A stretch of DNA of 31,477 bases from the IMG/VR virus record IMGVR_UViG_3300031951_000790, positions 1 through 31,477 of that record; one strand, written 5' to 3'. Below the pieces are notes generated by a model. That model was given only the letters and a program-made list of their open reading frames with translations, was not told the DNA's origin and searched no databases. Below, in pieces: positions 4,679-17,934 of the stretch (positions are counted from its first letter, which is position 1; every line of letters starts with the position of its first letter). Position numbers and translations under genes: made by a program. The stretch is from a virus.

Positions 4679-5215
4679 ATGGAAATTTGGAAAACAATTG
4701 AAAATTACCCTAATTATGAAATTTCTAATTTCGGTAATGTAAAAAGAAAACAAGGCTATCAATGTAAAATCGAAAGAATATTGATACCTTTAAATAACGG
4801 TAACGATTACATGAACGTAGGTCTTTCAAAAGACGGAATTAAAAAAAGAGAATACGTACATAGATTAGTTGCTGAAGCTTTTTTAGGAACGCCTAAAATA
4901 AAGTTAGAAGTAAACCATATTGACGGTAATAAATTGAATAATCAATTATCAAACTTAGAATGGGTAACACGGTCTGAAAATCAAAACCACAGATATAAAG
5001 TGTTAAAACATAAAGGAGCAAATACTGGAAAATTAGGTGAACTTAATTGGAAAAGCAAAAAAGTAGCTAAAATGGATTTACAAGGTAATGTTATTTGCGT
5101 TTATCCAGCGGTAATGGAAGCAATGAGGATTACAAATATTTGTGAATCAAATATAAGAGGTTGTATTTACGGAAGAAGTAAAACAGCTGGCGGGTTTAAA
5201 TGGAAATATATTTAA
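4679..5215 (+). CDS. Free-standing HNH homing endonuclease (NUMOD4-HNH-NUMOD1)
   Basis: The 178-residue protein has an N-terminal NUMOD4 motif (EIWKTIENYPNYEIS, residues 2-16). An HNH core follows (VHRLVAEAF with His61, then NHIDGNKLNN with His80, and NLEWVT). A C-terminal NUMOD1-like DNA-binding segment spans about residues 126-178. Such enzymes nick or cut a conserved phage sequence and copy themselves into it. It splits the lysis block between the endolysin and the gene at 5222. A 47-nt AT-rich gap upstream may hold its own weak promoter, with a near -7 box at 4647-4654. It is a selfish passenger, not needed for virion function. Confidence 0.9.
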   Translation: MEIWKTIENYPNYEISNFGNVKRKQGYQCKIERILIPLNNGNDYMNVGLSKDGIKKREYVHRLVAEAFLGTPKIKLEVNHIDGNKLNNQLSNLEWVTRSENQNHRYKVLKHKGANTGKLGELNWKSKKVAKMDLQGNVICVYPAVMEAMRITNICESNIRGCIYGRSKTAGGFKWKYI

Positions 5216-16331: not shown

Positions 16332-16766
16332 ATGGCAAAAGTAGGTAGACCAAGAAACTTAGATAGCCCTGAACAACTTTACGAACTATTCCTAAGATAC
16401 AAACAAGACGTAAAAGCAAATCCAAGAATAAAAAGCGTATTCGGTGGAAAAGAGTTTGAAGAAAGAGCAGAACCGTTAGAACGTCCTTTAACAATGGAAG
16501 GATTCGAAATATTTTGTTGGAATATAGTAGGCGAAGTTGAAGATTATTTTTACAATCGAGATAAAAGATACGAAGAATTTTCCGCTGTCTGTTCGCATAT
16601 TAAAAAAGAAATCCGTAGAGACCAAATCGAAGGCGGTATGGTAGGACAGTATAATCCAAGCATTACACAACGTTTAAACAACCTAAAAGAGCAAGTAGAA
16701 CAAACGAATATAGAACAACCGTTATTTAAACTAAATGATAATAACATCAGCGATAAGGAAGATTAA
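16332..16766 (+). CDS. terS: Terminase small subunit
   Basis: The 144-residue protein opens KVGRPRNLDSPEQLYELFLRY, a DNA-packaging small-subunit type start with HTH-like helices (LTMEGFEIFCW), then a long helix (FSAVCSHIKKEIRRDQIEGG) and a disordered acidic tail. TerS recognises the packaging site on the concatemer and activates TerL. Its 3' end overlaps the terL start by 32 bases, the usual arrangement. Confidence 0.82.
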   Translation: MAKVGRPRNLDSPEQLYELFLRYKQDVKANPRIKSVFGGKEFEERAEPLERPLTMEGFEIFCWNIVGEVEDYFYNRDKRYEEFSAVCSHIKKEIRRDQIEGGMVGQYNPSITQRLNNLKEQVEQTNIEQPLFKLNDNNISDKED

Positions 16767-17934
16767 CGCCCTACAAAAACGGATTAAAATAATCCAGGGT
16801 GGAACTTCCGCTTTTTATCCCCCTATGAATTAAGTAGTAGGGGGAGACAATGCAGGAAAAACATACGGAATATTACCGGTACTAATTACCAAGGCTGCAA
16901 CCTATCCACGAAGTGAAATTAGCGTAGTAGCTGAATCAATACCTCATTTAAGACGGGGTGCGCTAAAAGACTTTCTAAAGATAATGAAAGAAACCGGTAG
17001 ATACTTTGACGAGCGCTTCAATAAATCTTTACTTAGATACGAGTTTGCTAACGGAAGCGTAATAGAATTCTTTAGTGCTGACGATTCAAGTAAATTAAGG
17101 GGTGCAAGACGTGACGTGTTATACATAAACGAATGTAACAACGTAACATTTGAATCATACAACGAACTTGCAATACGTACAAAGAAAGAAGTATATTTAG
17201 ACTTTAATCCGGCTAATGAATTTTGGGTACACAAAGAACTAAAAGACGAACCAGATAGCGACTTCTTAATTTTGACGTATAAGGACAACGAAGCGCTTGA
17301 CGATAGTATTGTTCAACAAATAGAAAAGAACCGTTTAAAAGCCGAAACAAGCGCATATTGGGCTAATTGGTGGCGTGTGTACGGATTAGGTGAAATAGGA
17401 ATGCTCGAAGGCGTTATATTCAGTAACTGGAAAACAATAGACACACTACCAAAAGACGCAAAGTTAATCGGTATTGGATTAGACTTCGGTTACACGAATG
17501 ACCCAACTGCAATAATTGAAGTTTACAATTACAACGGTACACGAATATTAAACGAACTAAAATACCAAACGGGGATGCTTAATAGTGATATTGCAAAAGA
17601 ACTACCGAAACACGTACCCGTATATGCTGATTCTTCAGAGCCTAAAAGCATTGAAGAAATAAAGCGCTATGGAATAACAATTAAAGGCGTTACAAAGGGC
17701 AAGGATTCAATTAACTACGGTATTGATGTTATGCAGCGCCAAGAATATTTAGTTACGTCTAACAGCGTTAATTTGATTAAAGAGCTACGTGCTTACTGTT
17801 GGGATACTGACAAAGCGGGAACACGTTTAAACAAACCGATTGACACAAACAATCATGCTATTGATGCGTTACGATACCACGAAATGGAAACGTTAGGATT
17901 AAATTCTAACTACGGTAAATATCACATCTGGTAA
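16735..17934 (+). CDS. terL: Terminase large subunit, interrupted by a 42-nt insert with in-frame TAA
   Basis: TerL is the packaging ATPase and nuclease. The start at 16735 gives MIITSAIRKINALQKRIKII then QGGTSA, the normal beginning of this family, leading into the P-loop. Instead of GKT, a 42-nt segment follows with TAA at 16831-16833, after which the same frame resumes at GGDNAGKTYGILPV. No ATG, GTG or TTG lies between the stop and 16984, so the P-loop half has no start of its own. Downstream everything is intact: ESIPHLRRGALKDF, the Walker B-like VLYINECN, and nuclease blocks GLDFGYTNDP, YADSSEPKS and NHAIDALRY. The options are recoding by ribosome bypass, a defective gene, or an assembly fault. 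Confidence 0.75.
16781..16795 (+). other. Short hairpin just before the terL interruption
   Basis: GGATTA (16781-16786) and TAATCC (16790-16795) can form a 6-bp stem with an AAA loop, ending 5 bases before the GGA codon at 16801. In T4 gene 60 a stem upstream of the take-off codon aids bypassing. The bases also code for RIKII, so chance is possible. Confidence 0.4.
16804..16845 (+). other. Candidate translational bypass segment in terL
   Basis: Codon GGA at 16801-16803 is repeated at 16843-16845, 42 nt apart and in frame; a hop between them skips TAA and gives QGG-DNAGKT, a full P-loop. A GCT-to-GCA hop (16810 to 16852) would give GGTSAGKT instead. The gap holds a perfect inverted repeat TCCCCCTA / TAGGGGGA with a 12-nt loop, very unusual in this AT-rich genome. 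Confidence 0.5.

Follow-up and report, generated by a model that had tools for sequence, protein, structure and literature searches.

In gene 60 of bacteriophage T4, ribosomes bypass 50 nt of mRNA, from one GGA codon to another; the bypass goes together with mobA, and the gap has been proposed to protect against endonuclease. It is the only well-studied case of long-distance bypassing in phages; reviews describe it as apparently unique, and counterparts have long been presumed. Short inserts that ribosomes hop, restoring broken genes, are also found as byp elements in the yeast mitochondria of Magnusiomyces capitatus and Saprochaete (81 sites in 12 genes); their codons are not always perfectly matched, and they are said to be context-independent. 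A phage terminase gene has likewise come under suspicion of bypassing: the candidate in Streptomyces phage Hau3 is tied to a UUA codon, with a gap much shorter than the one reported here, and the text consulted on it describes no anatomy or endonuclease cassette of the kind presented below. Finally, group I introns and inteins at conserved active-site codons, and free-standing homing endonucleases whose invaded allele is resistant, likewise sit where an essential gene is best conserved, with a patchy distribution and an endonuclease nearby. In the openly accessible literature searched, we found no description of the terL element reported here.

An Interrupted terL Gene

The window, by which we mean the whole 31,477-base stretch of an IMG/VR virus record, contains a terL gene in its phage late region. 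The gene opens at ATG 16735, its first part runs to QGGTSA, and the downstream frame is intact to the TAA at 17934. Read in frame, the sequence gives MIITSAIRKINALQKRIKIIQGGTSA, then FYPPMN, a stop and VVGGDNA, and then GKTYGILPV and onwards. The codons of the gap are TTT TAT CCC CCT ATG AAT TAA GTA GTA GGG GGA GAC AAT GCA, followed by GGA AAA ACA (GKT). The parts of the locus, in window coordinates, are these:

16332-16766, + strand: terS (GP3_package / phrog_606), overlapping the start of terL; no endonuclease gene between terS and terL
16735-16812, + strand: first coding part of terL, 26 codons, recoded in insert-bearing phages
16757-16809, + strand: 5' stem-loop ending at the take-off codon (folding, synonymous-shuffle z, covariation)
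16757-16761 with 16805-16809, + strand: its outer helix, GGAAG:CUUCC
16767-16772 with 16796-16801, + strand: its middle helix, CGCCCU:AGGGUG
16781-16786 with 16790-16795, + strand: its tip helix, GGAUUA:UAAUCC
16810-16812, + strand: putative take-off codon GCU, the P-loop Ala (hairpin spacing, frame restoration)
16813-16854, + strand: presumed undecoded segment, 42 nt (39 nt plus the landing codon)
16818-16845, + strand: gap stem-loop UCCCCCUA(U)...(G)UAGGGGGA with loop GAAUUAAGUA (covarying pairs)
16831-16833, + strand: zero-frame UAA stop within the gap (read directly)
16852-16854, + strand: putative landing codon GCA, presumably not decoded (the Ala codon native to the resident gene, judging by the empty-site comparison)
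16855-17934, + strand: second coding part of terL, from GKT onwards, with Terminase_3 ATPase and Terminase_3C nuclease domains

The landmarks reported in an earlier note on this DNA lie where it placed them: GGA codons at 16801 and 16843, the TAA at 16831-16833, UCCCCCUA and UAGGGGGA at 16818-16825 and 16838-16845, and a 6-bp hairpin at 16781-16795. A second terL, which that note had named as evidence against bypassing, is absent from the window, where a scan of 48 ORFs gave only one terminase. The isolates nearest to the window are Flavobacterium and Bacteroides phages, at no more than 56%, so the hosts are probably Bacteroidota.

Recurrence of the Insert

The same sequence as in the window occurs in other metagenomes (L001/L087 and L002/L089), and the same segment lies within diverged terL genes (L007, L015, L018, L111, L120, L121). 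A search with the downstream protein gave 80 close relatives, the majority with an intact GGTSAGKT, GGTSAAKT or GGTSASKT and several with the segment; among fetched relatives, 75 have an intact P-loop of the GGTSAGKT type. The comparison of related terL genes proposed in the earlier note thus finds alleles of both kinds, with and without the segment. Motif scans and scans with a relaxed pattern extended the set to 144 loci from diverged TerL groups, which between them carry 47 distinct inserts; carriers are counted within the limits of these scans, which demanded a CCCC...GGGG stem and a P-loop of the GGT(S)A type, and insert-less relatives were sampled near the window's clade only. Bacterial genomes gave one genuine match, a contig of a Chitinophagales MAG (L250), and blastn against the isolated phages of INPHARED found no insert-bearing record. 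The exact loop motif matches only terL or unrelated chance sites in IMG/VR, so that the hairpin was not seen there in other genes; other CCCC...GGGG hairpins in the fetched loci resemble terminators.

On a TerL tree of 67 sequences, presence and absence of the insert need at least 8 changes on well-supported branches, and carriers stand as sisters to non-carriers in the pairs L121/L066 and L007/L004. At first sight the window offers a single odd gene in one contig, and the earlier note had allowed for a mutant or misassembled gene. Since the interruption is found in many independent contigs and as 47 distinct covarying inserts, it is real and no assembly error; the chance that it arose in assembly or sequencing, or is a one-off mutation, is negligible, and the purifying selection described below excludes that caveat as well.

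Anatomy of the Gap

The inserts are 32-50 nt long, and of the 47 distinct ones 27, 8 and 12 have lengths of 0, 1 and 2 modulo 3. Because all three length classes are occupied, readthrough cannot restore terL. A zero-frame stop lies inside 46 of the 47; in the window the UAA is the 7th codon after GCU, and in only a minority of inserts does the stop directly follow the take-off codon. One might still suppose that the segment is translated, by stop readthrough or by re-initiation after the UAA at VVGGDNAGKT, yielding a TerL that is either split or has a loop added. The 42-nt alleles do keep the frame, and VVGGDNAGKT looks like a P-loop, but alleles of 43, 44, 32, 35, 37, 38 and 40 nt are out of frame (20 of the 47 inserts are not multiples of 3), two carriers (L007 and L015) have two UAA codons, no in-frame ATG, GTG or TTG occurs between the stop and GKT, and loss of the beta strand and loop would wreck the Walker A fold. 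We regard translation of the segment as extremely improbable.

Every insert has a perfect, GC-rich stem of 6-14 bp. Its C-run begins some 6 nt downstream of the putative take-off codon, and the stem usually leaves that codon outside. The stem covaries (UA/GC/AU, CG/UA and AU/GC/CG pairs). The loops are either GNRA or of the conserved GAAUUAAGUA type, with GNRA loops in the groups other than the window-type. The spacing of about 6 nt is common to two registers, the hairpin shifting by one codon along with the take-off codon. In Ala-type inserts (37 of 47) take-off is at the P-loop GCN, and the triplet before GKT or SKT is GCN in 29, GTN in 7 and ATA in 1; in Gly-type inserts (10 of 47) take-off is at the next codon, GGN, and landing at GGA or GGT. 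Counted by lineage, 23 of 30 have codons for one amino acid at both take-off and landing (in the window GCU and GCA), six have GCN-to-GTN and one ATA, so that the landing codon is GTA, GTT or ATA in 7 of 30; in free sequence, GCN would be expected at the landing position in about 1.6%. The tail from the gap stem to the landing site varies from 1 to 12 nt.

Since the hairpin tracks the take-off codon by one codon while the 3' tail varies, we infer that the window hop goes from Ala GCU 16810 to Ala GCA 16852, which would yield the ancestral GGTSAGKT. This GCU-to-GCA register alone restores GGTSA joined to GKT across the 42-, 43- and 44-nt alleles. The earlier note had proposed a bypass element with a hop from GGA to GGA. 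Its bypass element is strongly supported; its GGA pair is not, as it is not conserved (GGG/GGT in L007) and gives the wrong frame in the 43-nt L116 and the 44-nt L091, and GCU 16810 to GCA 16852 takes its place as the putative pair.

A Shine-Dalgarno-like landing aid was considered, GGGGGAG preceding the landing codon in Ala-type inserts. The Gly-type tail can be as short as 1 nt and leaves no room for a consistent site, so we rejected a general role of this kind. A 3' stem-loop downstream of the landing codon was not supported (z +0.56).

The 10-nt loop of window-type inserts, GAA(N)WWAGUA (16827-16836 in the window), is nearly invariant among variable stems and looks structured; its GAA/AGUA we take to resemble a bulged-G motif.

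The 5' Stem-Loop and the Recoded N-Terminus

The sequence upstream of the gap is also structured. The window allele folds to -36 kcal/mol, compared with -22.4 +/- 3.5 in shuffles. When synonymous codons are shuffled, the mean z is -4.03 in 68 insert-bearing and -0.84 in 57 insert-less sequences, with window-type alleles at about -5 to -6. Across 12 window-type alleles, each of the three helices tested has undergone compensatory change, and 97.8% of cells are paired; double changes in the helices number 15, against 3.8 when shuffled and 0-1 when slid. These comparisons point to a 5' stem-loop that is built by synonymous codon choice and ends at the take-off codon. The 6-bp hairpin of the earlier note is present as the tip of this larger stem-loop (16757-16809). 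Other groups have analogous 5' stems of different sequence (GCAGAUG:CAUCUGC, CCGAA:UUCGG, AGRGGYGUGC:GCACSUCU).

Among window-type carriers the 60 nt upstream of the insert are 87-97% identical, against 65-90% downstream, and insert-less relatives that are nearer in protein diverge more in those 60 nt. Compared with the insert-bearing L018 and L120, the window has a pS of 0.26 and 0.13 in the first terL part, against 0.75-0.77 downstream; compared with the insert-less L003, pS of the first part is 0.87, though the downstream protein is 95% identical. The 26 N-terminal residues are basic (KRIKII), and equally so in insert-less relatives; they show no demonstrable nascent-peptide signal of the KKYK type.

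The same protein would result if the 32-50 nt segment were an unconventional mini-intron, excised before translation by a nuclease cutting at the hairpin and a ligase rejoining the ends. The strongly structured RNA at a fixed 5' distance would fit such a process, as would the association with homing endonucleases (see below), which introns share. However, we find no Rfam intron or ribozyme match (one sub-threshold chance match lies elsewhere), and the segment is far shorter than known self-splicing introns. Excision would also leave unexplained why an amino-acid-matched codon is duplicated at both borders, in two registers (Ala and Gly) and with drifting bases. The 3' boundary signal is not conserved, and the long 5' stem-loop within coding sequence is better suited to ribosome sliding. 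Furthermore, 12 terL loci have the recoded 5' signature, and every one of them keeps the gap; no gapless or cDNA-like version was among them. A mini-intron is therefore unlikely, and bypassing by the ribosome is the reading that we pursue.

Downstream of the gap, dN/dS between the window and the carriers L007, L015 and L111 is 0.05-0.06, with synonymous sites near saturation; TerL is there under strong purifying selection. This bears on the idea that the segment is a mere homing-endonuclease scar, in a terL that is dead or supplied in trans, as in defective or satellite phages. The broken frame and the mobile endonucleases of many relatives would agree with a scar, but not the low dN/dS at saturated synonymous sites, nor the conservation and covariation of both the 5' and the gap stems. 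The window has no other terminase that could serve in its place, and the element spans deeply diverged TerL lineages. A dead gene is highly improbable.

Homing Endonucleases and Cassette Structure

Of 128 insert-bearing loci, 36 have a homing endonuclease gene directly upstream of terL, as against 2 of 65 insert-less ones. By lineage, about one third of carriers have one, often behind a severed 5' remnant of terL; after dereplication the association has p-values of 0.0015-0.12, varying with threshold and representative (about 0.07-0.12 for the strictest). In many carriers the gene is a NUMOD4-HNH homing endonuclease; in five (L175, L200, L234, L241, L250) it is GIY-YIG-like, and in L166 an upstream ORF has an HNH-like motif, read by eye, with no Pfam match. 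Severed remnants upstream of the endonuclease occur in L015, L121, L231, L220, L166 and L175, that of L166 stopping exactly after GGTS.

The evidence for mobility is strongest in comparisons with empty sites, such as that of L015 with L013. Collinearity with L013 spans terS and continues into terL, where it breaks off 15 nt short of the last base of the P-loop Ala codon. In L015 there follow an endonuclease gene, a recoded second copy of the 5' part of terL, and the gap, after which the resident gene takes up again from its Ala codon. From this empty-site comparison and the severed remnants, the landing codon most plausibly belongs to the resident gene, the take-off codon being a duplicate of it that came with the cassette. 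The cassette appears to cut terL at the P-loop, to bring a recoded N-terminus, and to rejoin the resident gene through ribosomal bypassing. In L007, by comparison with its sister L004, only 42 nt are added in place. The window is in the same state: terS runs straight into terL, and no homing endonuclease lies next to it, the HNH gene at 4679-5215 being 12 kb off.

Proposed Mechanism and Relation to Known Systems

The earlier note's proposal of a T4-gene-60-like bypass element in terL, moving with homing endonucleases, gains strong support from the roughly 140 related loci. Considering the gaps of all length classes, the hairpin spacing, the covarying stems, the codon correspondence, the selection, the patchiness and the cassettes, we think it very likely that the window's terL contains a programmed ribosomal bypassing element, mostly similar to that of T4 gene 60 and here in an endonuclease-free state.

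By analogy with T4 gene 60, translation would run through MIITS...QGGTSA and then stall, with Ala-tRNA on GCU 16810. The cause, we propose, is the gap hairpin, which begins 6 nt further on and would reach into the A site. The peptidyl-tRNA would detach and the ribosome slide forward, helped along as the 5' stem-loop refolds behind it. Once the anticodon had re-paired at GCA 16852, decoding would restart at GGA AAA ACA to give GGTSAGKT. As to origin, empty-site comparisons suggest that an endonuclease cut terL at the DNA of the P-loop and that the cassette supplied the recoded first 26 codons and the gap hairpin; the rejoined gene would be uncleavable. In this phage the endonuclease gene may have been lost, or only the end of the cassette transferred.

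As in T4 gene 60, an essential phage gene is split into two ORFs by a non-coding gap that holds a stop, a hairpin follows just 3' of take-off, and a 5' stem-loop is present that in terL would likewise refold behind the ribosome; take-off and landing codons are of matched type in most lineages. In many carriers, as in T4, an HNH homing endonuclease lies upstream, and the gap may protect against cleavage. The differences are several. T4 bypasses within a topoisomerase subunit, whereas here the site is the P-loop of terL, with Ala or Gly take-off. The terL stop is non-adjacent, the stem starts 6 nt after the take-off codon and usually excludes it, the gap is 32-50 nt in any frame, and the codons are often merely synonymous or wobble-compatible. 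The terL element occurs in dozens of lineages rather than one, and its cassette duplicates and recodes the 5' end of the gene. It would work like T4 gene 60, but because it lacks the adjacent stop and tolerates non-identical codons, we do not class it as a member; we claim no sequence homology, and an independent origin is likely. Unlike the byp elements, it occupies one phage terL site and has an elaborate 5' structure. In contrast to group I introns and inteins, it involves no protein splicing and, with no Rfam match, no ribozyme; the endonuclease gene is found ahead of the new start of terL and not within the removed segment.

Programmed bypassing would here be coupled to a new cassette architecture. 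We consider it probable that these loci represent a new class of mobile cassette, in which unrelated endonucleases (NUMOD4-HNH, GIY-YIG-like and another HNH) repeatedly invade the terL P-loop and recode the 5' end while ribosomes hop the scar. Such a cassette would be an equivalent of introns and inteins that acts in translation. It would also be the first family of programmed ribosomal bypassing to occur naturally in bacteria or phages other than T4. With dozens of lineages, two types of take-off codon and variable gaps, rules drawn from a single mRNA on codon matching, on the position of the hairpin, on the 5' stem-loop and on the length of the gap would become testable comparative data, and the link between bypassing and homing endonucleases would become general. 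Such terL genes will be missed or truncated by gene callers.

Other Observations

One of the 48 scanned window ORFs weakly matches, in Pfam (E 1.3e-4), a beta-grasp domain whose name comes from staphylococcal and streptococcal toxins; this is probably a generic fold match. The window gene at 4679-5215 is homing-endonuclease-like (NUMOD4 and HNH_3), related but not identical to the HNH genes upstream of terL in carriers. Two insert-less loci, L060 and L079, have an HNH gene directly upstream of terL and no severed remnant; either they speak against strict coupling or they represent a resolved state. In L121 (1330-1962) and L095 (6933-7577), terS is separated from terL, or from the terL remnant, by the C-terminal part of an N6/N4 DNA methylase, which may be a further mobile insertion or a protector against the endonuclease.
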